From NCBI GenBank assembly GCA_029881725.1, contig JAOUMB010000031.1, positions 1 through 33,639 of the forward strand: a stretch of DNA of 33,639 bases, in the 5' to 3' direction. Origin of the DNA: Nitrospirota bacterium. Lineage in GTDB: Bacteria > Nitrospirota > JACRHL01. Of this stretch, positions 15,779 to 32,743 are shown piece after piece. A program made the position numbers and the translations under genes. Under the pieces are notes generated by a model. That model searched no databases, had not been told where the DNA came from, and worked only from the letters and a program-made list of their open reading frames with translations. Position 1 is the first letter of the stretch, and the number at the start of each line of letters is the position of its first letter.

Positions 15779-16750
15779 TCAGCCGACCCGGTCCTGCACC
15801 GGCTGCCGCTCGTTCTCGAGTTGGCCGCGCACCAGCATTTCGCCCAGCAGGCCGATGGAGAAGAACTGGATTCCGATCAGGATCAACACCCAGCCGCCCA
15901 CCATGATCGGCCGCAGGCGCATGGGGTAACCCATCATCCACTGGGCGGCGAAAAACAGGCTGACCCCGGTGCCGGCCATCAGGCACGCCAGCCCCACGGT
16001 GCCGAACAGGTGCAGGGGGCGGCGGCCGAACTTGACCAGAAACATGACGGTGACAAAGTCGAACAGCCCCTTCACGATGCGCGAGGCGCCGTAGTGGGAG
16101 GCGCCGTAACGGCGGGCATGGTGGCGGACCACCAGTTCACCCACCTGGAAGCCATTCCAGAACGCCAGCACCGGCAGGAAGCGGTGCATCTCACCGTATA
16201 CGCGCAGGTTATCGGTCACCTCGCGCCGGTAGGCCTTGAACCCGCAATTGAAGTCGTGCAGCCGGAGGCCGGAAAAATAGCCGGTCACGCCGTTGAATAT
16301 CCGGCTCATGAAGCGCTTTCCGAACGGATCCTTGCGCTCCTTTTTCCATCCGGAGACCACGTCGTACCCGTGTTCGGCCATGGCTTCCAGCATGCGCGGC
16401 ACCTCGTCCGGGTCGTCCTGCAGGTCCGCGTCCATGGTGACGATCACCTCTCCCATGGCGGCGCGGAAACCGGCCTCCAGGGCGGCGGATTTGCCCCGGT
16501 TCTTGCCGAAGCGGAGGGCCCGCACCCGCGGGTCGTGGCGGTTCAGTTCGCCGATCAGGTCAAAGGAACCGTCGGTGCTGCCGTCGTCCACGAACAGCAC
16601 CTCGAACTGACAGCCAACCCGCTCGGTGGCGGCGCAGATGCGGCGGTGCAGCTCCTTGAGGGATTCACGCTCGTTGAGCACCGGAATCACGTAGGAAAGG
16701 CGCGGCAGGGCGCCGCTTTCATACCTGCGATGGGGAACCGTTTCCATCAT
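15779..16750 (-). CDS. GT2 glycosyltransferase with two C-terminal membrane helices (DPM1/GtrB-like)
   Basis: A 323-residue polyprenyl-phosphate-sugar-synthase-type enzyme. It would load a sugar onto undecaprenyl phosphate for use on the periplasmic side. Motifs are YVIPVLNE (residues 20-27), FVDDGSTDGS (53-62), GKNRGKSAALEAGF (82-95) and the metal-binding MDADLQDDP (Asp107, Asp109). The NCGFKAYRR segment follows. Two membrane helices near residues 230-255 and 270-300 anchor it, as in GtrB. It starts ATG-ATG and overlaps the upstream GT2 gene by 4 nt. Such enzymes normally feed GT-C transferases; the two TMTC-like proteins upstream in the block are candidates (inference). Confidence 0.9.
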   Translation of the reverse strand: MMETVPHRRYESGALPRLSYVIPVLNERESLKELHRRICAATERVGCQFEVLFVDDGSTDGSFDLIGELNRHDPRVRALRFGKNRGKSAALEAGFRAAMGEVIVTMDADLQDDPDEVPRMLEAMAEHGYDVVSGWKKERKDPFGKRFMSRIFNGVTGYFSGLRLHDFNCGFKAYRREVTDNLRVYGEMHRFLPVLAFWNGFQVGELVVRHHARRYGASHYGASRIVKGLFDFVTVMFLVKFGRRPLHLFGTVGLACLMAGTGVSLFFAAQWMMGYPMRLRPIMVGGWVLILIGIQFFSIGLLGEMLVRGQLENERQPVQDRVG

Positions 16751-17754
16751 CGGGAGTCCTCCTCGCTGGCGCTATCCGTCCCCGGTTTCCGGTAGGCCAT
16801 GCGCCGGGTCAGGTAAAGGACGTTTTCCACCAGCTTGCGGTTGTTGGCAATCAGGTCCGCCACCACCCCCAGCACGCACACCTGAAAGCCCATGATGATC
16901 AGGATGGCCGCCAGAATCAGCGACTGGATGTGCCCCTCCCCCTCCCCGATGGCGTACAGGTAGATAAAGCGCACCCCGGGAATCATCCCCAGCAGCAACA
17001 GAAGGCCGCCGATGAACGTAAACATGCGCAACGGCTTGTACATGGTGAAGACGCGCAGCATGGTGGAGGCGGAACGCTTCAGGTAGCTGGGAATGGAGCG
17101 GAACAGTCGGCTCTTTCGCAGCATGGGGTTGGTGCGCACCGGCACGTGGGTCAACGCCATCGACTGGCGCCCCGCCTGGATGATGGTTTCCAGGGTGTAG
17201 GTGAACTCGGACACCACGTTGATGCGCAACGCCGCCTCGCGGCTGTAGGCGCGGAAACCGGAGGTGGTGTCCGGCACTTCGGTGCCGGACAGCTGCCGCA
17301 CCACCCAGCTGCCCCAGAACTGGAGCTGCTTCTTGGCAAAGGAAAAGTGGGCGATGGTCTGCGGCTCCCGGTCGCCGATCACCACGTCGGCGCGCCCGTC
17401 GACAATGGGCCGTACCAGTTTTTCGATGTCGGGCCCGTAATACTGGTTGTCGGCGTCGGTGTTGACGATGATATCGGCCCCGTGGGTAAGGGCGTATTCC
17501 ATTCCGGCGCAAAACGCCCGGGCCAGCCCCTTGTTGGAGGTGAAACGGACCACGTGATGCACCCCCAGTTCGCGGGCCACCTGGCTGGTGCGGTCGGTGG
17601 AACCGTCGTCAATCACTAGGTACTCGATGCAATCCACTCCGTCCAGTTTCCGGGGCAGATCGCCGATGGTGACCGGGAGGGTTTCCTCCTCGTTCAGGCA
17701 GGGAATCTGGATGATCAGTTTGATGGGGGGGGTGACCGTCACAACGCATTCCAC
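16747..17754 (-). CDS. GT2 glycosyltransferase with C-terminal membrane helices
   Basis: A 335-residue GT-A transferase related to the next gene but clearly distinct. Motifs are IIQIPCLNEEETL (residues 14-26), VIDDGSTDRT (47-56), SNKGLARAF (73-81), the DXD motif NTDADNQY (Asp100, Asp102), and PDTTSGFRAYSREA. Two hydrophobic helices at about 247-270 and 283-308 anchor the C-terminus. Proteins of this form are usually dolichol/undecaprenyl-phosphate mannose-type synthases. The start is GTG, with GGAAGG 8 nt upstream; that ribosome site lies in the loop and stem of a hairpin (17759-17775). It overlaps the following gene by 4 nt. Confidence 0.9.
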   Translation of the reverse strand: MECVVTVTPPIKLIIQIPCLNEEETLPVTIGDLPRKLDGVDCIEYLVIDDGSTDRTSQVARELGVHHVVRFTSNKGLARAFCAGMEYALTHGADIIVNTDADNQYYGPDIEKLVRPIVDGRADVVIGDREPQTIAHFSFAKKQLQFWGSWVVRQLSGTEVPDTTSGFRAYSREAALRINVVSEFTYTLETIIQAGRQSMALTHVPVRTNPMLRKSRLFRSIPSYLKRSASTMLRVFTMYKPLRMFTFIGGLLLLLGMIPGVRFIYLYAIGEGEGHIQSLILAAILIIMGFQVCVLGVVADLIANNRKLVENVLYLTRRMAYRKPGTDSASEEDSR

Positions 17755-17845: not shown

Positions 17846-20800
17846 TCACGGGGTGCACGGCGCGGCCGGATTGAGCGGCTCGCGCAGGCGCACCATGGTG
17901 TCGGACAGGTTGGCGGGCAGGATGATGTCATACACCCCCGCAACCGCCAGTTCCTCGGTGGACATAACACACCCTCCGGTGGCGGAGAACGTCACCTCGA
18001 TGCCCGACTGGGACGCACCCACCGCATCGGTCACCTTTCCCTGCAGCAGCACGCCGTCCGGATCCGATCCCACCAGCACGCTCATCCGCGCGAAGGAGGC
18101 CTCTCCCGCACGCACCATGAAGCGCCGGTTGCCATTGCTGCCATCCACCGCCGAGGCCCACACGTTTCCTGGCGGCACGTTCAGCGCAATAAAACGGCCC
18201 GATAAATCGGTGGTGGACCGGACGGCCAGATTGCCACCGCTGTCCAGGTAAAACAGATCCGGAACAGAATTGCCATCCACGTCGGCCACCTGCACGCGAA
18301 TGCCGTCCTGGGGGGGTTGGGTGCCGCTGAACACCGTCAGGTCGTGGGTGGTCTGGTTGGTAATCACCAGGTCGGATCCACCGCCCTCGTCGAAGTTGTC
18401 CACCACCACATCGGAGGGTGTCCCTCCGGTGGACAGGGCGGGCCTCCGGCATACCGGCAGATTGCACTGCCAATAAATGAACCGGGTCTGGGTCACGGGG
18501 TCCAGGTCCTGGCCCAGATACACGGTAACGGTATTGGTTCCGGGACACATCACCAGCAGGTCGGTCCAGCGGTCCGAGTTGATATTGGCCACCTTCATGC
18601 GGCGGGCGTTGCACCCGGGATCCAGGTTGATGGGCGCGACGATCTCCATGGACCCGGTGGGCAGGACATCCCACACCTGCACCTGATTGGCACCCCGGCT
18701 CAACACGATGTACTCCAGATCCCGGTCCACCTTGACATCGCCGTTCCGGTCCAGGTCGAGGCGCAGGATGTCGGAGGGGTTGGTGCCCGCGGACAAAAAC
18801 AGGGGCTGTTCCCGCACCAGGCCCGCACCGGTGTTGGCGTAGGTTTCCACCCGCTGATCCAGTTCCATGGAAACGATCACATCGTCACGGGGATTCGGGG
18901 TGGTGAGCCGCCCGGTGGAGCTTATCAGCTTGTGCACATCCCGCACCACCATGGCCGAAGGGGAGGTTCCGTCCAGGGGAAACGGCGAATAGTCCGCCTC
19001 CACGTAGCGGCGGTCCTCACCGCGGATGAAAATCGACAGGGAGGGGGAACCGCCGGCGTTCAACACCACCACGTCGTCCCGGTCGCCGTCGGCGTCCATA
19101 TCGCCCAGTTCGATGGCGATGGGGGTGGATCCGGTCAGCAGGCGGCGGCTGCGGTCCTCGCGGAAGGAGCCGCGGATGGTGCCGAGCAGCACGGTCACAT
19201 CGCCGGAACTGGCCCCCTGATTGAGCACCAGAATATCACCCACCGCATCCCCGTTGACCTCGGTTCCCACCAGGTCCACCGGGGTCAGCCCGACCGGGTA
19301 GGTTCCCGCAGTGGCGAAGCGCCCGTCCGGGGTCCCGAAATAGACGGAAACGTCGTCCGAGTCCCCATTTGCAACCAGCAGATCGGGAAGGTCATCGCCG
19401 TTCATGATGGAAGACGCCACGGCGGTGGGGCCGCGCACCCCGCCGGAGATTACCCATTCGGTTCCCGGGCCGTTTTTCCAGGTGCTCACCTGCACTTCTC
19501 CGATCACCACCCCCAGATTCGGATCTTGCACCACCGGGTTGCCGGATGCGGCCAGTTGCTGCTCCAGCATTGCCAGGCGCTGCTGCGACAACCCGACCAG
19601 TTCAACCCCGCCCTTGTTCGTGCCGCCGGTGGTGACCGCCAGATTGTGGGTGGGCAGATAGTTGCCCAGGGGATTGGCCGACACGATGAAGTCACCGGCG
19701 ATCCTGAGCCGCGCCTGAAAGGTGCCGTCTCCCTTGGTGAGTTCCGTCAGGTACCCGCCCTGGGATGTCAGATCGCGGGACGGCTCGCCCCGGAAGGTGA
19801 GGGGGGTGCCCCCGACGGGCATGCCGTCCAGATCCCGGAGCACGCCGGACAGGGTGATCTGTTCCTCCGGCGCATCGCCGACCACCAGGGATCCCATGGC
19901 CGTGACCCCGCCCGGATACACCCGAACGGTGCGGCTTCCGGTATCGTTATGGGACACCACGTGCACCAAAACCAACCCCGGCGGCACGTTGAACACCACA
20001 AATTCCCCCTGAAGGGAGGTGGACTGCAACCGCTGCGGCAGCCCGACGGAATCCAGATAGCGGATATCCCCCACCGGGATCCCGCTGTCGTTGTACACGC
20101 GCAGTTCGATGTCCGGGGTGGTGCCGAGAGTTCTGGAATTCAAAATCCGCCCCACCAGAATGCCCAGGCCCGGGTCCACCTGCACCCCCGCCACGGCGGC
20201 CATCGCCTCGATTTCCGAGCGGGTGAACACCTGAAGGTTACGCACCACCTCCGCCCCGCCGCTGGGCAGGAATTCCATGCCGCTGGTTCCCACCAACTGG
20301 TAGGTGTCCACATAGTTGGAGCGTCCCGGAAGGCTGCCCACCCTGGCCACGTAATCCCCGGCAATCGGCAGGTTCGAGGCGGTCAGATTGTATTGGTCGA
20401 ACGGGTCGGGACGGTACTGGGAAAGAATTGCATATTCACCACCGGAAAACACCGTACGCTCGCGGATCGGGCCGTCGTAACGGCCCGGTCCGGCGCTGTA
20501 TCCGCCAATGTCCACCACCACGTCGGAAACCGGCGTGGACAGGTCCGAGAGGGTCATGCTGCCGCGCAGGGAAAACTCGGTGACCCCCACGGGGGATTCG
20601 CCCTGTTTCGCCGAGGCCACCCTTACTTCCGCAAGTGTGGCCCCATCGGGAAACACGCTGACCACGGTGGCCCCGCTCTTAACCGTGCGCGATCCGCTCC
20701 CGTCCGTATATGCGCTGCCACGGACAAAGATCGGGCCGGGCGGAAGGTCAAAGGCGACAAAATAGGAGGTGCCTTCCGCCTGGGCCTTGTTGATTTGCCG

Positions 20801-21859
20801 GTCATACAGAATCGCCCTGCCCATTCGGTACTGGCCCACCGGCTGGCCATCGAAGGTGGAGAAGCTGAGGCGCCCGTGGACTTGCGGATTGTCCCCGGTA
20901 AAGACCCGGCCCAGAATCATGCCGGTACCCGGCTGTGGCGTGATGCCGGTATCCTGAAGCCATCCGGCCACCCGGTCGTCCGACAGCATGAAGAAGTCCC
21001 GGGTCAGGTCCACCGCCCCGTTCAGGTCCGCCAGGTAGGTGTTGATGAGCTGATAGGTGGGCACGTGGCCCTCGGCTTCGCCCTTGATCATGAACTGGCT
21101 GCTGGACGGAAGCTTGAAGCGGAACCCCACCAGCGGGGTCACCTGCAAAAATCCCTGGTCATCGGAAAAACGGGTATCGCCCTGCAGGCCGACACCGCTG
21201 ACGGACACCGGGAACACGTTGCCCAGGGTGACCCAGTCCTGGATGGCGCCGGTCAGGCCGATCTCCGCGATAATCACCGGCACCGTGGTCACCGGCTTGA
21301 CGGAAATGCTGCCCGCAAAGGACGCTACACGCCCCACTCCCAGTCCCCCCTTGGAGGCGATGACGAAGGTCTCTCCGGGGGGAACGTTGAACACGGTAAA
21401 GGACCCCTTGGCGGCAGTGCCTTCCTCGGCTCCGAAATCCGGGACCCCACCCAGGCCGTTGTAAAAGACATCCGGCAGCACATTGCCGTCAAAATCGCGC
21501 AGCTCCAGCAGCACCGACGGAATCGGCGTGGCCCCGAATACGGTATACCCGCTCAGCACGCCCCCGGAAACATCGGCGGACACGTTGGCGGCGGACAGCA
21601 GGTTGGCCAGGTCCGCATGGGAGAAAATACGCAGGTCCGCCCCCCGGTCGCGGCCGACCTTGCTGCCGCGATCCCGGTCGCCGGTGGGAAAATCAAAGTT
21701 GAACGTTTCCACAAATGGCACGTCGCGAACACCGGAGGACTCCGGGCTGCCCGGAAACGGCGCGGCGCCGCACCCGCTCAACGCGAGCGCAACCGCCAGC
21801 GCAAGCAGGGCGCCAAGCCCCCGGTGCCGCAGGTCAGAACTGGTACGCAACCTCAACAT
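17846..21859 (-). CDS. giant modular lipoprotein: four PPG modules, the last split by a seven-bladed FG-GAP propeller
   Basis: A 1337-residue lipoprotein. The signal ends in ALSGC with lipidated Cys30. Four related modules follow. Each begins with a short helix and a P-x-x-G-x-(I/V)-x-G-x-(V/I) strand (clear at ~307, ~562 and ~779; weaker at ~98) and has an (N/D)-(V/L)-PPG turn (158-162, 371-375, 624-628, 1227-1231) with Ig/carboxypeptidase-regulatory-like beta flanks. Residues ~811-1180 are seven FG-GAP/VCBS-type repeats with DxDxDG-like calcium loops, placed inside module 4. The DxDGNxxPDxFYxxxGG segment occurs in both modules 1 and 4. The start at ATG 21859 lies within the end of the DUF1302 gene (26-nt overlap), with only a weak ribosome site. 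Likely anchored in the outer membrane and exposed, as a binding or scaffold protein (inference). Confidence 0.88.
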   Translation of the reverse strand: MLRLRTSSDLRHRGLGALLALAVALALSGCGAAPFPGSPESSGVRDVPFVETFNFDFPTGDRDRGSKVGRDRGADLRIFSHADLANLLSAANVSADVSGGVLSGYTVFGATPIPSVLLELRDFDGNVLPDVFYNGLGGVPDFGAEEGTAAKGSFTVFNVPPGETFVIASKGGLGVGRVASFAGSISVKPVTTVPVIIAEIGLTGAIQDWVTLGNVFPVSVSGVGLQGDTRFSDDQGFLQVTPLVGFRFKLPSSSQFMIKGEAEGHVPTYQLINTYLADLNGAVDLTRDFFMLSDDRVAGWLQDTGITPQPGTGMILGRVFTGDNPQVHGRLSFSTFDGQPVGQYRMGRAILYDRQINKAQAEGTSYFVAFDLPPGPIFVRGSAYTDGSGSRTVKSGATVVSVFPDGATLAEVRVASAKQGESPVGVTEFSLRGSMTLSDLSTPVSDVVVDIGGYSAGPGRYDGPIRERTVFSGGEYAILSQYRPDPFDQYNLTASNLPIAGDYVARVGSLPGRSNYVDTYQLVGTSGMEFLPSGGAEVVRNLQVFTRSEIEAMAAVAGVQVDPGLGILVGRILNSRTLGTTPDIELRVYNDSGIPVGDIRYLDSVGLPQRLQSTSLQGEFVVFNVPPGLVLVHVVSHNDTGSRTVRVYPGGVTAMGSLVVGDAPEEQITLSGVLRDLDGMPVGGTPLTFRGEPSRDLTSQGGYLTELTKGDGTFQARLRIAGDFIVSANPLGNYLPTHNLAVTTGGTNKGGVELVGLSQQRLAMLEQQLAASGNPVVQDPNLGVVIGEVQVSTWKNGPGTEWVISGGVRGPTAVASSIMNGDDLPDLLVANGDSDDVSVYFGTPDGRFATAGTYPVGLTPVDLVGTEVNGDAVGDILVLNQGASSGDVTVLLGTIRGSFREDRSRRLLTGSTPIAIELGDMDADGDRDDVVVLNAGGSPSLSIFIRGEDRRYVEADYSPFPLDGTSPSAMVVRDVHKLISSTGRLTTPNPRDDVIVSMELDQRVETYANTGAGLVREQPLFLSAGTNPSDILRLDLDRNGDVKVDRDLEYIVLSRGANQVQVWDVLPTGSMEIVAPINLDPGCNARRMKVANINSDRWTDLLVMCPGTNTVTVYLGQDLDPVTQTRFIYWQCNLPVCRRPALSTGGTPSDVVVDNFDEGGGSDLVITNQTTHDLTVFSGTQPPQDGIRVQVADVDGNSVPDLFYLDSGGNLAVRSTTDLSGRFIALNVPPGNVWASAVDGSNGNRRFMVRAGEASFARMSVLVGSDPDGVLLQGKVTDAVGASQSGIEVTFSATGGCVMSTEELAVAGVYDIILPANLSDTMVRLREPLNPAAPCTP

Positions 21860-23636
21860 AGGCCCTCGAAGTGTTCTGGAAAAATCCGGCAAAATGGAAC
21901 TGCCCCGGCAGCGGCTCGCCCCGTGGCCCCACATCGGCGATGTCCCCCTCCATGATATCGGCGCCCACACTCAGCTTGACCCGCTGGGTCATGAGGATAT
22001 CCACCCGGGGACGCCACACCCACTCCTTGTCGTTGATAAAGTGAATCACCAGCATCTGGGCGGTCACGATGTTGTCCAGGAAGGTCTTGCGCACAAATCC
22101 GGCATGCACCGTATCCACCGGGTCGGCAATGATGGACGGGTGATAGTCGAGAATGGTCGCGCGCAGGTACTGGACTGAAAAATCGATCCCGAAATAGGCA
22201 AAGTCCGCATTCACCGCCCATTTGTAATAGTCGCGCTGCAACGCGCCGCCGGACGCGTCCGGCGGCAGCGGATACTTGGGGTCGAGGAAGGTGCCGAACA
22301 CCTTGCCGTGCACGTAGGCGGCCTCGGCGCTCATGATGAACGGGCCGATGGAGCGCGACATGGAAATACCGGGAATTTTCAGGCGCGGCGGCACGGGAAT
22401 AAAGTCGACGGTGGGGGTCTGACCGAACTCCGCGTCCGCCCCCACCCCGCGCACGGTGCGGAAAGCGGCCGGAAAGTCGTCCCAGGTGTCCAGATAGCTG
22501 GTGGTCATGTCCGCACCGAACAGGCTGAAGCTGTAGCGCAGCCCGTACTCCGCGTTTTCCACACCGGATTTCGGCACCCGCAGCCCGGGCAGGTACTGGA
22601 ACTGCTCGAACTCGGTCCCCACCGGAGCCGGCTTGTGAGGCTGCACCTCCGGAATCCACAGGAACTGCAGGCTGGAGTTGCTCAGGTAATAGTCGTAGCG
22701 CACCATGAACAGCGGCACGTAGCGGTCCACCACCTCGCGCAGGATGAATTCCTTGAAGTCCAGCGGGTTGACCTCGTCGGTCACGCGGGAGCCCTCCACC
22801 ACGCCCCAGCGCACAATCTGCCGCCCCACCCGCAGGTCGGAGGCACTGAAATGCACGTCCATAAACCATTCGCGCAGTTCGATCTGGGTTTGCACCACCT
22901 CCACCAGCCGCACGTTCTCCACGGTCAACTGGTCGATCAGTTCCGGGGTCTGCTCCTCGGTCAGGATGGTGGTGGGGCCGTGGCGGGGATGGATGGTATC
23001 CACATCCTCCAGGTCGTACACCGCATCGTAGGCGACCCGGGGCACGGTCTTCAGTTCCATCATGCCGCCGATGGGGGTGAAGGTTTCCATGCGCACCACG
23101 TTCAACACCTTGGAAAAAGCGGCCGGATTCACATAGCGGTAGGCGGTTTCGTTGCGCAGGTAACCGGTCACCGTGGTGCCGGTCGCTCCCAGGAACCGAT
23201 CGACCAGACCGCCGCCAGCCGCCTCCTCTTCGCCCAACGCGTCACTGCCGCCGACAAAAATATCGTCCCCACCCCCGCCACCACCGAAAAAAATATCGTC
23301 ACCGCCGTCATCCTGGCCGGAACCAGCGTCCTCGGCGGGTGCGCTGGGAGCGGGATAGGCATCGGCGGGCAACGCCGGAGCCGCCGGCGCCCGGAGCGAC
23401 TGCCCGGCCTGGGCCGGCACGGGGATGCCCCCCACCAGTACGCAGAGCAGCACCGGAACGGCCCACGCCCCACGCCTGAACCCGCCAAGCGGATGCACCA
23501 AAAGGGAAAACAGGTGCCGCCATTGGATGAAGACGGGCCGTTCCACGGAACGGGAGCCCCCCCCCTCGACCGCCGGATTACTGGCAGCCCGCGTGACACA
23601 CGCCCCGATGACGGGATTATTTCCCTTTGTTTTCAA
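21834..23636 (-). CDS. DUF1302-like outer-membrane beta-barrel protein
   Basis: A 600-residue barrel protein. A signal region (about residues 50-77) has two Arg, a VPVLLCVLVGG core and an AQA|G cleavage site. A low-complexity linker follows with two DDIF motifs (residues 113 and 124) in a Gly/Asp-rich stretch. From ~150 on, alternating amphipathic strands lead to a terminal Phe, and GRQIVRWG...DEVNPLDFKEF matches the core of DUF1302 proteins. Family members are often associated with DUF1329 proteins and lipid/RND export; no DUF1329 gene is here. The TTG at 23636 gives an overlong leader; GTG at 23546 (570 aa) or a start nearer the hydrophobic core is possible. The gene overlaps the lipoprotein gene, so the two products may form a pair. 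Confidence 0.82.
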   Translation of the reverse strand: MKTKGNNPVIGACVTRAASNPAVEGGGSRSVERPVFIQWRHLFSLLVHPLGGFRRGAWAVPVLLCVLVGGIPVPAQAGQSLRAPAAPALPADAYPAPSAPAEDAGSGQDDGGDDIFFGGGGGGDDIFVGGSDALGEEEAAGGGLVDRFLGATGTTVTGYLRNETAYRYVNPAAFSKVLNVVRMETFTPIGGMMELKTVPRVAYDAVYDLEDVDTIHPRHGPTTILTEEQTPELIDQLTVENVRLVEVVQTQIELREWFMDVHFSASDLRVGRQIVRWGVVEGSRVTDEVNPLDFKEFILREVVDRYVPLFMVRYDYYLSNSSLQFLWIPEVQPHKPAPVGTEFEQFQYLPGLRVPKSGVENAEYGLRYSFSLFGADMTTSYLDTWDDFPAAFRTVRGVGADAEFGQTPTVDFIPVPPRLKIPGISMSRSIGPFIMSAEAAYVHGKVFGTFLDPKYPLPPDASGGALQRDYYKWAVNADFAYFGIDFSVQYLRATILDYHPSIIADPVDTVHAGFVRKTFLDNIVTAQMLVIHFINDKEWVWRPRVDILMTQRVKLSVGADIMEGDIADVGPRGEPLPGQFHFAGFFQNTSRAYVEVAYQF

Positions 23637-23767: not shown

Positions 23768-25594
23768 TCACCCGTTTCCACACCGGGCTTGTCCCTTGCG
23801 GATCAGCGCGGTAATGGCCCCGGCCAGTTGCGGGGTAACCGCCTCCCGGGGGATGGCCGCAAGCGCGGCCTTGGCCGCGTCGCAGTGGCCCAGGGCCAGT
23901 TCCGCACGGGCCAGATTGAGTCCCGCCGCAGGAGGTGCATCCACGCTGGCCACCGCCCGCGCAAAGGCGTCCCGCGCCTGTTCGGGCCGATGGCTCAGGG
24001 CATAGAGAACCCCCAGATTGTTCCACGGGTCGTAGGCCTTCGGCGCCAGTTCCGCGCCGCGGCGAAACGCGGCTTCGGCCTCCGCCGCGTCGTTCAGCGA
24101 CTGAAGCGCAATGCCCAGCCCCATCCAGGCGGCCAGATTGTCCGGCGCTCGCCGGGTGGATTCCAAATACAGGTCGCGGGACGCCGCCACATCGCCGGCG
24201 GCGCGGGCGGTGGCGGCGGCGGTATTGCGCGCGCTCACATCATCGGGAACCTGTTCCAGATAGCGCCGGTACATGTCCAGCGCCTCCTCGTTCCGCCCCT
24301 GCCCCCGGTAGGCCATCGCCAGGTTGTTATTCACCCGTGAACTGCCCGGAACCCGCTCCAGTTGCGCTTCCAGCACCGTCACGGCATTGGCGAAATCCCG
24401 GTTGCGGTCCCAGGTTCCCACAGCCAGCACCAGCAGCACCGCCACCCCGGCGGCCGGCGCGGCGCGGCGCAGGCCCGGATGCAGGGACGGCAGGCGGGCC
24501 AGGCCGATGCCGGCCAGCATGCAGAAGCCCACCGACGGCAGGTACAGGTAGTGCTCGGCAAACAACTCGTAATGGGGAATGATGTGCATCACCGGCACAT
24601 ACGTCATCCACAGCCAGTGCACCCCGAACATGGCCGCCCCGCCCCCCCGGCGCACCATCCAGGATCCGGCCCAGGCGGCGGCGCCAAGCACCGCCAGCGC
24701 CACCGCCAGACGCGGGTCCAGGGGCGAGGTCACCGGTGCAAACACCCCCTCGTAATCGAGCAGCAGTCCGGTGGGGAGGAACAGCAGCCGCAAGCCATGG
24801 GCCATGACCACGGCCACGGTCATGAAATTGGCCGGCCAGGAGCCGCCGTGCGGGGGATGCCCTCCCCCGGTGTTCTGGAACAGGAGCATGTACAGGATGA
24901 ACAGGGCCGCGGCCAGGGCCCCGGAACCGTACAGCCGCCAATGGGTGGTCAGCACCCGGCGGGCGGCGGCCACGGTACCCAGTTGTTCCCCGCGGGCGCA
25001 GCGGGCCAGATCCACCAGGAACCAGGCCCCGGCCACGGTGGCGGCCATCTCCTTGGTCATCACCCCGCACACCGCCCACAGCACGGCCCACCCGAACCAG
25101 CGGGTGCTCCGGGTATCACGGAACCGCAGGTAGGCGGCCACCGAGGCCAGATAAAACAGGGTGGACAGCACGTCCCGCCGCCCGGAAATGTAGGTGACCG
25201 AATCCACGTGCACCGGATGCACCGCAAACAGTGCCGCGCCCCACAGGGCGGCGGCACGGTTGCCGGTGATCCCGCGCGCGATCACGAACACCAGCCACGT
25301 GGTCAGCGCGTGGTAGATCAGGTTGAACAGGTGGTAGACGAACGGGTTCAGGCCACCGAGCTGGTAGTCCAGCATCTGCGACAGGTCGCGCCCGATGCGG
25401 TAACGGAAGGTGGCCTCCCCCCAGCCGAACAGTTGCGGCAGATGGGCAAACCCGTGGGCGCGGGTGTTGGTCAGCACGGTCGCCGTGTCGTCCCATACGA
25501 AGCCGCCCGACAGGCCGTTCACAAACGGCAGCACTGCGGCCAGCAGCACCAGCGGCACACCTAAACGCACGTCGATGGACCGCTCACCACTCAC
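23768..25594 (-). CDS. TMTC-like multi-pass membrane protein with C-terminal TPRs (putative GT-C O-glycosyltransferase)
   Basis: A 608-residue inner-membrane protein. About ten hydrophobic helices span residues 10-430. The first periplasmic loop carries GGFVWDD (Asp35-Asp36), the diacidic position expected for GT-C enzymes, and the next region has AVHPVHVDSVTYISGRRD (His126, His129, Asp131, Arg139), a pattern seen in TMTC proteins. Residues ~440-600 are TPR units (VNNNLAMAYRGQG, AWMGLGIALQSL, PWNNLGVLYAL). Eukaryotic TMTC1-4 are O-mannosyltransferases using dolichol-P-mannose; here an undecaprenyl-P-sugar from the GT2 enzymes would be the logical donor (inference). GTG at 25594 overlaps the upstream paralog stop (GTGA). 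Confidence 0.85.
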   Translation of the reverse strand: MSGERSIDVRLGVPLVLLAAVLPFVNGLSGGFVWDDTATVLTNTRAHGFAHLPQLFGWGEATFRYRIGRDLSQMLDYQLGGLNPFVYHLFNLIYHALTTWLVFVIARGITGNRAAALWGAALFAVHPVHVDSVTYISGRRDVLSTLFYLASVAAYLRFRDTRSTRWFGWAVLWAVCGVMTKEMAATVAGAWFLVDLARCARGEQLGTVAAARRVLTTHWRLYGSGALAAALFILYMLLFQNTGGGHPPHGGSWPANFMTVAVVMAHGLRLLFLPTGLLLDYEGVFAPVTSPLDPRLAVALAVLGAAAWAGSWMVRRGGGAAMFGVHWLWMTYVPVMHIIPHYELFAEHYLYLPSVGFCMLAGIGLARLPSLHPGLRRAAPAAGVAVLLVLAVGTWDRNRDFANAVTVLEAQLERVPGSSRVNNNLAMAYRGQGRNEEALDMYRRYLEQVPDDVSARNTAAATARAAGDVAASRDLYLESTRRAPDNLAAWMGLGIALQSLNDAAEAEAAFRRGAELAPKAYDPWNNLGVLYALSHRPEQARDAFARAVASVDAPPAAGLNLARAELALGHCDAAKAALAAIPREAVTPQLAGAITALIRKGQARCGNG

Positions 25595-27474
25595 GGTGTC
25601 CCTCCGTTTCCGGATTCCATGCCCGCCACCGCCGCCTCCCACCCGGGCAGACGCGGGTCCCCCGGCAGCCGCTCCCGGAGCCGGGCCAGGGCCGCACGCG
25701 CCTGTTCCACATCGCCGGACGCCCCGGCCACGTGCAGGGCCAGCATGTCGGAAACAGCCGCCTGCGGGCGGTGCTCCCGCAGCACCCGGATGCCGTGGCG
25801 GGCCGCGTCCAGACGCCCGGCGCGAATGGCCTGGCGCACCAGTTCGGTCACCGTGCGTTCCGGATCACCGGTATGAAAGTATTTGCGGGTACGTTCGTTC
25901 TCGATTTCCGCGTCCAGCAATTGCAGCAGGGTATCGGTGGCCTGCCCCGGACGGTTCAGGCGCGTATACACCTCGGCCAGCTGCACCAGATAACGGGGCT
26001 GGCCGGGGGCATCCGCAATGGTGCGGGACAGCAGCCGCTCCGCTTCCTCGAAGCGCTCCTGAATCACCCACACCCGGGCCAGGTTGTAGCGGGCATCCAG
26101 TTCCGTGCGGGTGGTGGCCAGCCGGTAAAAGATTCGCTCCCCCTCCTCCACGCGGCCCGCCATCACGTAGAACGCGGCCAGATTGGTCCACGCGTCGTAG
26201 GAGTCCGGGTCGTGCTGGACGGCATCTTCCCACAGGGGGATATTGCCGGCCCACACCCGCTGGCGCGCGCCGGTCACCACCAGGAACAGGACGGCCACCA
26301 CCCCGGCCGCTGCGGCCAGTTGCCGCCTGCGGGGGCGGGCCACCTCCCACAGGCGCGCAAACAGCACCGCCCCGGCGATGCAGATCCCGGCGGAGGCGGT
26401 ATAGCCCCGGTTCTCCAGCAGGATGGTGGTCAGGTGCACGAAGGTGGAGGGGGCAATCAGCAGCAGATACCAGGCGAACCCCACCGGCACCAGTGGCATG
26501 GTTCGGCGCACCCGCCAGGCGGCGATTGCCAGCAGACCAATCACCAGCAGGCTGAGCACGGTCTGCGGAGAGGTGAGTCCCACCGTGGTATCGATCGGAT
26601 GGGCCAGGGTCAGGCCGGTGGGGATCACCATCAGGCGCAGGTTTTCCGCCAGGCACCAGAATGCGGTGGCCAGACGCCACTCCTCGCCGGTGACCCGGGC
26701 CAGATAGTGGAACGCCCAGGTTACGTTGGGCATCACCGACAGGGCCACCACCAGGCCCACCGCATAGGGCGCATAGGGCGCCCACAGGCGCGGGGAATCC
26801 CAACGCAGGTTCAGGGCCGGGCGCAGCACCAGCAGGTCCAGTACCAGCAGCGCGGCGGGAACGGTGAGGGCGGTTTCCTTGGAGATCAGCGCGGCGCCCA
26901 GCGCCAGCAGGTGGACCGCGTACCAGGCCACCGCCCGCCCGCCGCGGGCGGCGCGCATGCGCACATACAGGGCCAGGGCCAGCATGGAAAACATGCCGCA
27001 CATGACGGCCGAACGGGCGGTCATGTAGTGCACCGCCTCCACGTTAAACGGCAGGATGGCAAACAGGGCCGCGGCGCCAAACGCCACTTCCGGATCCAAC
27101 CGGCCGGTCAGCCTGCCCAGTCCGGACAGGGCGAAGAACAGCGCCAGCACGGTGACGGCATGCAGCGTCAGCTGGGTGACCTTGAACGGCACCGTGCTGG
27201 CGCCCATGGCGTGGTTGATGGCGTAGCTTAAGGTCACCAACGGCCGATAGTGGCTGGTGGCAGTCACCGAATAGGTGGATACGTCGGTGAAAAACCGGGG
27301 CCACTCCGAAAGCGACTGGAGCGCCGGATTGAGCTGGATATAGGGCGCGTCGTCGTACACGAACTCCCCGGACAGCTCCCACATGTGAGCCAATACGGCG
27401 AGCGCCACCAGCAGCAATGGCAGCAGCCAGGGCCGCCGGCCATGGATCTGGCGGATATCCGGCGGTGTGCTCAT
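25591..27474 (-). CDS. second TMTC-like membrane protein with C-terminal TPRs, divergent motif
   Basis: A 627-residue paralog of the next gene: an N-terminal helix at ~16-30, GEFVYDD (Asp41-Asp42) in the first loop, about ten membrane helices to residue ~415, and TPRs from ~440 (AWTNLAAFYVMAG, ARYNLARVWVIQE, YLVQLAEVYTRL). The HPxH pattern of its neighbour is replaced by LPFN (141-144), while Glu146 and Arg154 remain. It may therefore be a specialised or inactive partner. Start is ambiguous: ATG at 27474 or GTG at 27489, neither with a clear ribosome site. It ends 4 nt inside the following gene. Together they look like a tandem duplication that has diverged. Confidence 0.84.
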   Translation of the reverse strand: MSTPPDIRQIHGRRPWLLPLLLVALAVLAHMWELSGEFVYDDAPYIQLNPALQSLSEWPRFFTDVSTYSVTATSHYRPLVTLSYAINHAMGASTVPFKVTQLTLHAVTVLALFFALSGLGRLTGRLDPEVAFGAAALFAILPFNVEAVHYMTARSAVMCGMFSMLALALYVRMRAARGGRAVAWYAVHLLALGAALISKETALTVPAALLVLDLLVLRPALNLRWDSPRLWAPYAPYAVGLVVALSVMPNVTWAFHYLARVTGEEWRLATAFWCLAENLRLMVIPTGLTLAHPIDTTVGLTSPQTVLSLLVIGLLAIAAWRVRRTMPLVPVGFAWYLLLIAPSTFVHLTTILLENRGYTASAGICIAGAVLFARLWEVARPRRRQLAAAAGVVAVLFLVVTGARQRVWAGNIPLWEDAVQHDPDSYDAWTNLAAFYVMAGRVEEGERIFYRLATTRTELDARYNLARVWVIQERFEEAERLLSRTIADAPGQPRYLVQLAEVYTRLNRPGQATDTLLQLLDAEIENERTRKYFHTGDPERTVTELVRQAIRAGRLDAARHGIRVLREHRPQAAVSDMLALHVAGASGDVEQARAALARLRERLPGDPRLPGWEAAVAGMESGNGGTP

Positions 27475-27507
27475 GGAACCGGGACACACAGGGGGACACC
27501 GTGTAAC

Positions 27508-28975: not shown

Positions 28976-31900
28976 CTAGAAAGCGTAATTCATCGAAACC
29001 ACCACCTTCTGCTGTTTGTTGATATTGTCCTGCTGGATGTTGCCCGTAAGCTCCGCCTCCAGGTCGGATGGAATATCAATCGTCACACGGTTCTCCACCT
29101 GAACCAGTTCCACCACCCAGCGTGCCTTGTCGGTGGCCTGAAAGGTAAACCGCAGATTCACCGACAGGGCGCCCTGAACCTGTTCCGTTTCCACGTAGTT
29201 GGTTCCCCCCTCCGGGGTCGGAAAGGGTTGAAAAGTGCCCCTCACAAAGCGGCTGGCGCTCCAGGAGCCGGTCAGTGCTGCGGTCACCCGCGGATAGGGC
29301 CGGAACGAAAAGCTGCTGGAGGCATTGATCGCATCGATGACAATGGGCACCGGGGTGCGGTCGGGGTCGCCGGGACGCACGTTGGTCTTCCGATCTTCCC
29401 GGGATTTGCTGCGCCCCAGGTTCATGTTGAACACCCGCCCTTTGGACAGGGTGCGTTGATAGCCGACGGTGCGGGTGTCGGAGGTTTTTTCCACGTCCAG
29501 GATGGCGCTCACTGCCGTGCGGTGATCTATCCCCCCGGTCCATCCGACGGTAAACCGGTTGCTCTTGCCCAGCGTAAAATCATGCCCCAGGCGCATATCG
29601 AGATACTGTTGCAGATAGTTGTTGCGCGGGTTCAGGTAGGAAACGAATTCGGTGCGGGAATAGGACAGGCCCGTGGTCTTTGGGAACCCGATCCGCCCCG
29701 ACAGGGCGAGGCTTCCCAGATAGCTGACGCTGGTGGTGCCACGCTGGTTCCGCACCATGGTGACGTTGCTCGCCGGCGTTATGTTCAGGCGCGCAAGATT
29801 CACCGGCGCGCTGGCGCCCAATGTGCTGGTGTTTACATAGGTCTGAAAGGTGTAGTGCAACCGGTGGTTGGTGGAAAAGGAAAGCGGAAGGGACAGCCAG
29901 GAGGTGCGGAACGGGGTATAGGTGAGCGAAAGCGTGATATCACTAAATACCCCCGGCCGGGGGACGGTGGAATTGTTGGCGTTGGTGTTGAAGTTCAGCA
30001 CCGTCTGACTGAGGCGCACGTCCCATTTCTTGGCGGCGGCCAGCTTGGCCCGGGCATAGCCGGCCAGTTTGGCGTCCGATGGGCCGGCTATGGCGATAGC
30101 GCGCTGGAACCATTCCGCAGCGGTGGCATACTTGGGCTCCACACCCGTTGCCAACCCGTCCCCCCCTTCATCGATAGCCACCTTTTCCGCGGCCAGACCG
30201 CGCTCGATCAGCACCGCCACGGTCTCATCGTGTCCGGCAAGATACCAGTCGTACACCGCAGCGGCTTCGCTGTACCGCTCCGCACGGGAAAGCAGGCGCC
30301 CCTTGGCCAGCACCAGATCCACGTCATCCGGGCTGGCATCCAGCAGACCGGAAATCACCTCCACGGCCTCGTCGATGCGCTTCTGGGCCTCATACACCTT
30401 GGCCAGAAGGAGGGCCGAGCGCTGGTGCGTGGCACTGACGGCCAGCGCTTTTTTCAGCGCTTCCTCCGCCAGATCGTACTGCTCCCGTTTGTTGTATATT
30501 TGCCCCTGGTTGGACAAATAGGGAAGGTACTTCGGTTCCCGCCGGATTCCCTGATCCAGGTAATATAGTGCCTCGTCCTCCCGGCCCAATGCCATGAGCA
30601 ATTCCGACAGGACCTCGGTCAGCTTCCGGTGGGCGGGATCCAACTGATAGCCGCGCAAATAGGCGGTTATCGCCGCGTCCTTGTTCCCCGCCTTCAACAG
30701 GGAACGGCCGATCACAAGATAGGAAATCGCCTTTTCCTTTCCGTCCGCGGAGCCCCGCACCTCCGCCAGACGGCGGCGGGCCTCCTCCACCTCCGGCTCG
30801 TCGGTGCCGAATTCGAGCACCTTTTCAAACGCACCCACCGCCTCCTGGGCCACTCCGGCCATCAGGAAAAACAACCCGAGACGAAAATGGGACTGCACGT
30901 GATCCGGCTTGTATTTCACCGCTTCACGCAGTTCCTTGTAGGAATTCTGGGCCTGTTCCAGCTCCCAGTAGAAAATGGCCGCGTTGTAGTGGTAATAGGG
31001 GTTGGTCGGATCCAGTTGGATCGCCTTCTGGATGCGCTCGGATGCCGCCTGGAAGTTACCTTCTCCGGCCCGGTCCAGCGCCTCGAGGAAGGCGTCCCGC
31101 GACTCGCGCATGCCGGCGAATTTTTCAATGGTGTCCCGCAGCTCGCCGACCATGATGTCGGCCACCCTGCGGCGCGGATCGTCCCGCGGGGCCCAGCGCA
31201 ACACGTTCTGATAGCTTTCATAGGCCTGTTCAAACTGGCCGCTGCCGGTGTAAATGATCGCCAGACCGTAATGGCTCAAATAGTGTTGCGGATCCACCGC
31301 GATCGCCGCACGCAATTGCTCTCCGGCCTTGTCGTTATCGCCCTCCTGACTGTATACGGTGGCCAGGTTGTAGCGCGCCAGCACGTTGTTCGGAACCAGG
31401 GACAGAATTTCCTCCAGCAGTACCCTCGCGGTGGGCAGGTCGCCAGCACCCATCGCCTTCACCGCCAGGGAGGTGTTTTCACGCACCTTGCGGGCGGTTT
31501 CCACATCGCCGCCGAACAGTTCGATGCGGCGGCCCGCCTGCTGCGCTTCGCTGCTGTTGCCGCCGTAGCGGACCACGTCGCGAAACGCGGCCAGCGCTTC
31601 CGCCTCCCGTCCCGCGCTTTCGTGCAACAGGCCCAGCTGATGAATTGCCTTGAAATATTTCGGGTCCGCCTGCACGGCCCGCTTGAAGGCCGCCTCGGCA
31701 CCCGACGTGTCCAACTCCTGCAACCGGCTCAACCCAAGCAGATAGGACGCGTCCACGTTCCTGGGATCGAGTTGGACCAGTTTCCCGAACCATTCGGATG
31801 CCGTCTTGTAATCCCGGTCCTGGAAAAAGCTCAAGCGGCCGAGCGAAAACAGGGTGGGGGCATGCCTGGGCCACACCTTGATGATGTGCAGGTAAACGTC

Positions 31901-32602
31901 CCGCGCCTTTTCATTCAGGTTCGCCCGTTCATAGGCGGCACCCAGTTGGGTTCCCGCCTCGGCATCGTTCGGGCGCATGCGGAACACCTCCTCCAGATGC
32001 GGAAGAGCGTCCGCCTGCCTGCCCAACTGGATCAGGATCTGCGCCAGGTTGGTTCGGGCCGCGGCGTTTCCAGGGGCCAGACGCACGATTTCATCCAGCA
32101 CCTGGGTAGCCGCATCCATTTGCCGCGCCTGCATGGCCTGCTGCACCCGGGAGAAAAGTTGATCGATGCGGCGGGCGTCGTCCGCGGTGGCCCCGCGTTC
32201 CGCAAAAATCGCACCGATGCCCTGTGCCACGCCATCCGCGGGGTTTTCGTCCACCAGCGCCTGATAGACCGCATAGGCTGCATCCAGCTTGCCCTGGGCG
32301 GCCAGGGCGCCCCCCAGGACCAGGCGCGCCTCCCGATCCCCCGGATTGGCGGAAAGGTGCGCCTTCAACAGCTGCTCCGCCTCCGGCATCCGCCCCTTGC
32401 GCATCAGGGCATCCGCATCCTGAATTGGACCGGCCCATACCGGGGTGCTCACACAGATGGCCGAAACCACGGCAAGGAGCAAGGCTGCAAGGGATCGTAG
32501 GATCAACAGGGGGTCTCGGGGAAAAAATGACCGGGCCTTGGCAACCAAGGCAACAAAAACTGAAAATTTACCTGAACGTGACGAATCCTCCAAAGGATAC
32601 AT
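28976..32602 (-). CDS. large TPR protein with C-terminal outer-membrane beta-barrel
   Basis: A 1208-residue envelope protein. The signal peptide has a basic N-terminus, a LRSLAALLLAVVSAICV core and a VWA|GP cleavage near residue 57. Residues ~60-840 are a long TPR superhelix (repeats with YNLATVY, YHYNAAIFYWE, YLLGLSRL and DP/NP ends). From ~858 to the end, alternating aromatic/polar strands finish with NYAF, a typical barrel C-terminus. The plan (periplasmic TPRs plus a barrel) recalls exopolysaccharide exporters such as BcsC, PgaA and PelB, but I see no close motif match. Start at ATG 32602 was chosen because GGAGG is 5 nt upstream; ATG 32605 is too close to that site. First gene of the cell-surface block. 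Confidence 0.88.
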   Translation of the reverse strand: MYPLEDSSRSGKFSVFVALVAKARSFFPRDPLLILRSLAALLLAVVSAICVSTPVWAGPIQDADALMRKGRMPEAEQLLKAHLSANPGDREARLVLGGALAAQGKLDAAYAVYQALVDENPADGVAQGIGAIFAERGATADDARRIDQLFSRVQQAMQARQMDAATQVLDEIVRLAPGNAAARTNLAQILIQLGRQADALPHLEEVFRMRPNDAEAGTQLGAAYERANLNEKARDVYLHIIKVWPRHAPTLFSLGRLSFFQDRDYKTASEWFGKLVQLDPRNVDASYLLGLSRLQELDTSGAEAAFKRAVQADPKYFKAIHQLGLLHESAGREAEALAAFRDVVRYGGNSSEAQQAGRRIELFGGDVETARKVRENTSLAVKAMGAGDLPTARVLLEEILSLVPNNVLARYNLATVYSQEGDNDKAGEQLRAAIAVDPQHYLSHYGLAIIYTGSGQFEQAYESYQNVLRWAPRDDPRRRVADIMVGELRDTIEKFAGMRESRDAFLEALDRAGEGNFQAASERIQKAIQLDPTNPYYHYNAAIFYWELEQAQNSYKELREAVKYKPDHVQSHFRLGLFFLMAGVAQEAVGAFEKVLEFGTDEPEVEEARRRLAEVRGSADGKEKAISYLVIGRSLLKAGNKDAAITAYLRGYQLDPAHRKLTEVLSELLMALGREDEALYYLDQGIRREPKYLPYLSNQGQIYNKREQYDLAEEALKKALAVSATHQRSALLLAKVYEAQKRIDEAVEVISGLLDASPDDVDLVLAKGRLLSRAERYSEAAAVYDWYLAGHDETVAVLIERGLAAEKVAIDEGGDGLATGVEPKYATAAEWFQRAIAIAGPSDAKLAGYARAKLAAAKKWDVRLSQTVLNFNTNANNSTVPRPGVFSDITLSLTYTPFRTSWLSLPLSFSTNHRLHYTFQTYVNTSTLGASAPVNLARLNITPASNVTMVRNQRGTTSVSYLGSLALSGRIGFPKTTGLSYSRTEFVSYLNPRNNYLQQYLDMRLGHDFTLGKSNRFTVGWTGGIDHRTAVSAILDVEKTSDTRTVGYQRTLSKGRVFNMNLGRSKSREDRKTNVRPGDPDRTPVPIVIDAINASSSFSFRPYPRVTAALTGSWSASRFVRGTFQPFPTPEGGTNYVETEQVQGALSVNLRFTFQATDKARWVVELVQVENRVTIDIPSDLEAELTGNIQQDNINKQQKVVVSMNYAF

Positions 32603-32743
32603 CATCCCCTCCAAGTTTCATGCCAATCATGGGGCGGCAAGGGATGAGGATGAGAATCGGTTCCCTCCTCTCCAGTCCGATGATCGCCGCAGTGCATTTT
32701 CATGGTCTTTGCCATTCCCGCCCCATCATTCCCACCTCCCCCT

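Follow-up and report, generated by a model that had tools for sequence, protein, structure and literature searches.

Two questions are raised by a contig of a Nitrospirota bacterium (JAOUMB010000031.1, all 33,639 nucleotides of which are hereafter called the window): whether a whole propeller can be inserted within one repeat module of a bacterial lipoprotein, and what such a protein would do at the cell surface. The lipoprotein gene is a genuine open reading frame of 1337 codons that runs on the minus strand from an ATG at 21859 to a stop at 17846, its ATG overlapping by 26 bp the 3' end of an upstream gene for a DUF1302-like protein. The protein was analyzed together with its relatives as a set of 21 members, the window protein included, to which all counts out of 21 refer. 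Profile comparisons across this set make it almost certain that an FG-GAP propeller is nested in a loop of the fourth module, between the first strand and the rest of the sandwich.

Domain organization of the lipoprotein

Judged from its sequence, the chain is best described as four repeats, each composed of a module A of the carboxypeptidase-regulatory-like type and a second domain B, as follows.

17846..21859, minus strand: gene of the lipoprotein with the predicted nested propeller, 1337 amino acids (open reading frame, ATG to stop)
21770..21859, minus strand: signal peptide and lipobox, residues 1-30, ending in ALALSGC with lipidated Cys30 (pattern and inspection)
21299..21634, minus strand: module A1, residues 76-187, unsplit (M3 profile, 9e-11)
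20984..21298, minus strand: second-type domain B1, residues 188-292, approximate (alignment with B2 and B3)
20660..20983, minus strand: module A2, residues 293-400, unsplit (M3 profile, 1e-8)
20240..20659, minus strand: second-type domain B2, residues 401-540, approximate (alignment of B domains)
19868..20239, minus strand: module A3, residues 541-664, unsplit, the reference module (self-comparison and profile)
19589..19867, minus strand: second-type domain B3, residues 665-757, approximate (alignment of B domains)
19469..19588, minus strand: split module A4, first half, residues 758-797, helix and first strand VVIGEV (left-half profile)
18320..19468, minus strand: predicted seven-bladed FG-GAP propeller, residues 798-1180 (Pfam FG-GAP_3, blade model, integrin-alpha match of a structural model)
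18074..18319, minus strand: split module A4, second half, residues 1181-1262 (right-half profile, 2e-17 at 1179-1256)
17849..18073, minus strand: C-terminal second-type domain B4, residues 1263-1337, approximate (N-terminal-region profile match to about 1292, weak Big_1 match, conserved in orthologues)

A preliminary description of this DNA had presented the protein as a lipoprotein with homologous modules, the first and fourth of which share the motif DxDGNxxPDxFY, and these traits were all recovered. The lipobox reads ALSGC with Cys30, and relatives carry a Cys-containing, lipobox-like motif near the start, as judged by pattern and inspection. Self-comparison of the protein paired residues 596-635 with 1199-1238, 148-187 with 1217-1256 and 112-151 with 1183-1222, the three strongest pairs, and also 280-319 with 533-572; the shared motif of modules 1 and 4 appears as DFDGNVLPDVFY and DVDGNSVPDLFY, respectively.

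Outside the propeller, Pfam gave only sub-threshold carboxypeptidase-regulatory-like and Ig-like matches in the window protein, the carboxypeptidase regulatory-like family PF13620 scoring 22.0 bits against a cut-off of 32.3. This cut-off was passed in homologues from loci L067 (37.2) and L070 (34.7). In L067, PF13620 matches best over the second half of module 4, from profile position 13 onwards and hence without the first strand. The NCBIfam scan of the window lipoprotein returned no matches, and in sequence searches of the PDB neither of the two parts of the lipoprotein nor the two partner proteins gave a usable match. The homologue from L064 (4707-8813) carries thrombospondin type 3 repeats at its C-terminus, residues 1313-1351, which are unmatched in the window protein.

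The propeller

Pfam FG-GAP_3 (PF13517) matched the middle of the protein in three stretches with 55.1 bits (cut-off 26.9), and its scores in homologues reach 140.8 bits. A blade hidden Markov model (HMM) trained on the lipoprotein family found seven blades in 18/21 members and six in those from L070 and L072. In the window protein, five blades are clear, starting at residues 811, 860, 913, 1087 and 1148, and sub-threshold pieces of two degenerate blades lie within 966-1085 (at about 966 and 1028); homologues display seven regular blades. Residues 798-807 probably form the closing strand of the propeller. The calcium motif DxDxDG of loop AB is intact in blade 3 (DMDADG) of the window protein, partial in blade 5 and otherwise degenerate.

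Residues 740-1265 were modelled with FG-GAP rows in the alignment, giving a mean predicted local distance difference test score (pLDDT) of 62.7 and a predicted template modelling score of 0.64. The best PDB match of the model was integrin alpha (Z 30.6 over 317 residues aligned, root-mean-square deviation 2.7), which supports an integrin-like fold for the modelled propeller. The alignment behind this one model drew module residues into the propeller. Since the last blade of relatives was aligned onto VADVDGN, the model was used for the fold only, and neither closure nor blade numbering was taken from it. By type, the propeller falls into the VCBS/integrin group, which includes lectins and calcium-binding forms (PMC8023676). 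It resembles integrin alpha and bacterial FG-GAP (VCBS) proteins in having seven FG-GAP blades, but differs from them in being nested in a bacterial lipoprotein module and in its mostly degenerate calcium motifs.

The split fourth module

The position of the propeller relative to module 4 was assessed with two profiles: a left-half profile of 32 positions (helix and first strand), built from 39 unsplit modules 1-3, and a right-half profile of 86 positions covering the second half of the module. The left-half profile matched just before the propeller in 20/21 members, ending 18-47 residues ahead of blade 1. Among 4200 shuffled windows over the 21 members (200 per member), 34 reached the real left-half score, 32 of them from L062, where the first half can be recognized by eye but does not score above chance (32/200 shuffles). 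In the window protein the match lies at 767-787 with 12.6 bits, a score reached by 0/200 shuffles. The right half starts directly after the propeller, at profile position 4-9, in all 21 members (E 3e-22 to 3e-6). As a control, the 75 residues that immediately precede the second half were scored with the left-half profile, and there 2084 of 4200 shuffles reached the score, which is chance. Because the profile matches before blade 1 and performs at chance level beside the second half, the first half is placed ahead of the propeller, away from the second half. From homology we infer that the two halves of A4 pack together.

The alternative arrangement, in which the propeller would stand between two complete modules as one of two independent domains, draws on the segment VADVDGNSVPDLFY after the propeller, which resembles an FG-GAP blade and on which alignments of FG-GAP proteins put one. 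The same residues, however, align with modules 1 and 3 and lie in the region matched by the right-half profile at 2e-17; moreover, a first half is found ahead of the propeller but not immediately ahead of the VADVDGNSVPDLFY region. This arrangement is therefore very improbable. A seemingly complete module after the propeller in L073 was rejected, as the alignment was over-extended and the first half is also found before the propeller. A model of an unsplit module (A3 and B3, three-row alignment), with a mean pLDDT of 45.3, matched nothing in the PDB at E 0.001 and was thus uninformative on the module fold.

Combined, these results agree with the preliminary description on the split itself and on seven FG-GAP-like repeats, the starts of which coincide almost to the residue with those of the blade HMM. 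Its module boundaries were shifted: the opening that it had set at about 779 becomes a first half from about 758 (helix) to about 788 (strand), and the resumption that it had set at about 1192 comes slightly earlier, at about 1181-1184. Structure prediction, which it had named as a check, supported the integrin-like fold, the blade count and closure not being drawn from the model. It had also called the architecture unusual, which holds insofar as we know of no nested propeller in a module of the carboxypeptidase-regulatory-like type; nested propellers are not unique in principle, prolyl oligopeptidase being the classical case.

In prolyl oligopeptidase a seven-bladed propeller likewise sits inside another domain, with hydrolase segments on either side (hydrolase 16-48 and 465-608, propeller 193-209; PMC12325989). 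Its host domain is, however, an alpha/beta hydrolase with a catalytic triad, whereas here a propeller of FG-GAP blades is hosted by a predicted small beta-sandwich module; no Pfam match to an alpha/beta hydrolase domain was obtained in the lipoprotein. In a literature search covering open-licence papers in full text, together with titles and abstracts, neither the architecture nor the operon was found described. The lipoprotein offers a clear, conserved natural case in which an entire propeller occupies a single loop of a repeat module.

Distribution of the family

Three genomes of the same family as the window's encode orthologues with 47-60 percent identity and identical architecture, one of them cut by a contig end. 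To cover the phylum, a profile of residues 45-780, which excludes the propeller, was run against 395 genomes and was found in 16 genomes from 13 genera and six families, several genomes having two copies. Despite the propeller-free query, all 17 additional proteins fetched (1272-1444 amino acids) contain the propeller. The nested layout is kept in 21/21 relatives, all from one bacterial phylum. A search for close relatives in GTDB contigs yielded only FG-GAP proteins (from Hymenobacter and others) and no family member, the profile test being confined to the phylum, and a scan of viral contigs with A1 and A3 gave no match.

Unsplit paralogues

A search with the DUF1302 partner protein exposed a second operon type. 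This paralogous operon, found in three genomes (L090, L091 and L099), contains genes for a DUF1302 protein, a TPR-barrel protein, a lipoprotein with the same modules and upstream secreted proteins, but the modules are unsplit and blade-free and a separate Kelch-repeat gene follows. A fourth relative of its lipoprotein was found in genome G253. The paralogous lipoproteins, of 908-934 amino acids, have zero blades, and in L090 and L099 the second half of the module comes about 12-15 residues after the first half where both were matched. The availability of unsplit paralogues for comparison opens the origin of nested propellers to study.

In L090, L091 and L099 the protein encoded by the next gene contains Kelch repeats above Pfam cut-offs, together with PKD and LamG-like domains. 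Kelch repeats form a propeller of another family than FG-GAP. Given unsplit, blade-free paralogues with a neighbouring Kelch gene, a propeller seems to be needed, whether as a nested insert of the lipoprotein itself (in cis) or as the product of an adjacent gene. Kelch neighbours at L091 16108-18615, L103 395-3901 and L104 1136-4633 show PKD and LamG-like domains followed by Kelch repeats, and two of them have fibronectin or phosphatase-type domains.

Partner genes

The features of the window that surround the lipoprotein gene are as follows.

21834..23636, minus strand: DUF1302-like outer-membrane protein, the conserved partner (Pfam DUF1302 40 bits, cut-off 23.2; adjacent in 21/21)
23768..27489, minus strand: two TPR-containing membrane proteins of the TMTC-like type, encoded between the TPR-barrel and DUF1302 genes (Pfam and gene order)
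28976..32614, minus strand: TPR protein with a C-terminal probable beta-barrel, the third component (Pfam TPR; homologues adjacent or fused to DUF1302)
16747..17754, minus strand: GT2 glycosyltransferase, next gene downstream (Pfam; conserved in the window's family where the flank is present)

The DUF1302-like gene adjoins the lipoprotein gene, upstream on the same strand, in all 21 loci. Outside the window's family, the TPR-barrel gene precedes DUF1302 in 16/16 loci with sufficient flank, 12 of them with separate and four with fused genes. The window's TPR-barrel gene shares the strand of DUF1302, with the TMTC-like and TPR genes lying between the two. GT2, GT4 and TMTC-like genes flank the locus in the window's family. 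The fused proteins unite TPR, a probable barrel and DUF1302 in one chain of about 1580-1600 amino acids (L064 8832-13553, L066 10619-15361, L068 1634-6427 and L075 8755-13509), possibly two outer-membrane barrels in one polypeptide; their DUF1302 scores are 47.1 bits in L064 and 48.1 bits in L066. Tandem TMTC-like TPR proteins occur beside TPR-barrel genes, two in the window and four or more in family f8 (L100, L101). At L061 10066-11433, directly downstream of the lipoprotein gene, a 456-residue protein with the N-terminal sequence FARKYDMDCNHCHT resembles Cyc2-type porin-cytochromes.

In nine loci (L061, L062, L064, L066, L067, L068, L070, L072 and L075), the TPR gene is immediately preceded by one or two genes for small secreted proteins. 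Comparable proteins occur in the propeller-free operons (L090, L091 and L099), in family f8 and also at L093-L095 and L098; the members of these families are often in tandem. Those tested against Pfam and NCBIfam matched no family; by inspection they show recurring hydrophobic-x-hydrophobic-x-Q-x-hydrophobic motifs. One secreted type, searched in 23 genomes, was found only in operon-bearing genomes and mostly beside the operon. These proteins could be fibre subunits or export substrates. Several genes, some of them fused, and candidate substrates make up this conserved outer-membrane locus, of which family databases say only DUF1302 and TPR; little is known of export across the outer membrane in this phylum.

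Possible function of the locus

As the layout is kept in 21/21 and the outer-membrane partner is constant, the lipoprotein is probably part of an unstudied cell-surface machine. From the lipobox, the nested propeller, the conserved gene set and the partner fusion we infer roles in export, in binding and in an outer-membrane complex. In the most likely mechanism, the predicted TPR-barrel and DUF1302 barrel would together form an outer-membrane transport or assembly unit, beside which the lipid would anchor the lipoprotein as its accessory. The A/B repeats might serve as a stalk, and the propeller as a docking surface for an exported substrate or a surface ligand; candidate substrates are the small secreted proteins whose genes lie upstream in many of these loci. 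Gripping the propeller at both ends, the split module would fix its position relative to the membrane partners. Taken as one statement, the architecture together with an export or assembly mechanism has about an even chance of being correct. A tentative proposal is that the locus specifies a dedicated export or assembly system that has yet to be described, its propeller either nested or Kelch-supplied and its own small beta-rich substrates possibly forming surface fibres.

Among characterized systems, the type IX secretion system has in PorE (PG1058) a lipoprotein of the outer membrane whose TPR, propeller and carboxypeptidase-regulatory-like domain follow one another along the chain (PMC5053529). 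The window lipoprotein is similar in combining a propeller with carboxypeptidase-regulatory-like modules at the outer membrane, and PorE acts in protein export. However, PorE has serially arranged domains and an OmpA-like end, whereas here the TPR is on another protein, the propeller is nested and the phylum is another; the Pfam scan matched neither TPR nor OmpA in the lipoprotein.

Several observations weigh against an export or assembly system built in this way. The barrel region of the window TPR protein matched no Pfam family. One secreted-protein profile finds no member in the four genomes of the window's family, whose loci have glycosyltransferases and TMTC-like proteins beside the operon in place of candidate substrates. 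These neighbours would fit the export of a polysaccharide or glycoprotein, in which the TPR-barrel would act like PgaA or BcsC and the lipoprotein would be an accessory of a surface glycan pathway. The PgaA and BcsC models do match the window TPR protein, but all below their cut-offs, and families f24, f25 and f31 mostly lack the GT2, GT4 and TMTC-like neighbours, several having secreted-protein genes instead, so that a glycan pathway is an unlikely explanation for the locus. Somewhat better placed, though still doubtful, is a surface receptor or adhesin, whose propeller, displayed on the outside, would bind carbohydrate, protein or metal while the barrels exported the lipoprotein itself. Both the integrin-like propeller, with lectins and calcium-binding forms in its group, and the partnership of TPR and barrel speak for it, the latter resembling Slam (type 11 secretion), which exports secreted or surface lipoprotein substrates (PMC8406197). 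The Slam-type TPR model PF24575 scored 25.6 bits in the window against a cut-off of 35.2 and passed it in fused homologues (57.8 and 46.2 bits; L064 and L066), cross-matching between TPR being likely. Yet the Slam barrel PF04575 (DUF560, SlipAM) has no match in the window's genome and a single one, at another locus, among five genomes; the locus differs from Slam by the additional DUF1302 barrel protein and the propeller lipoprotein; and a receptor leaves the upstream secreted proteins and the strict DUF1302 pairing unexplained.

A second DUF1302-like gene

A second DUF1302 gene of the window's genome, on contig C99, was considered as a further copy of the system and rejected, as it sits with apparent LolA-like and MMPL/RND genes. 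This gene (L081 3480-8361) shows 37 percent identity, and the same cluster occurs in family f8 and others.

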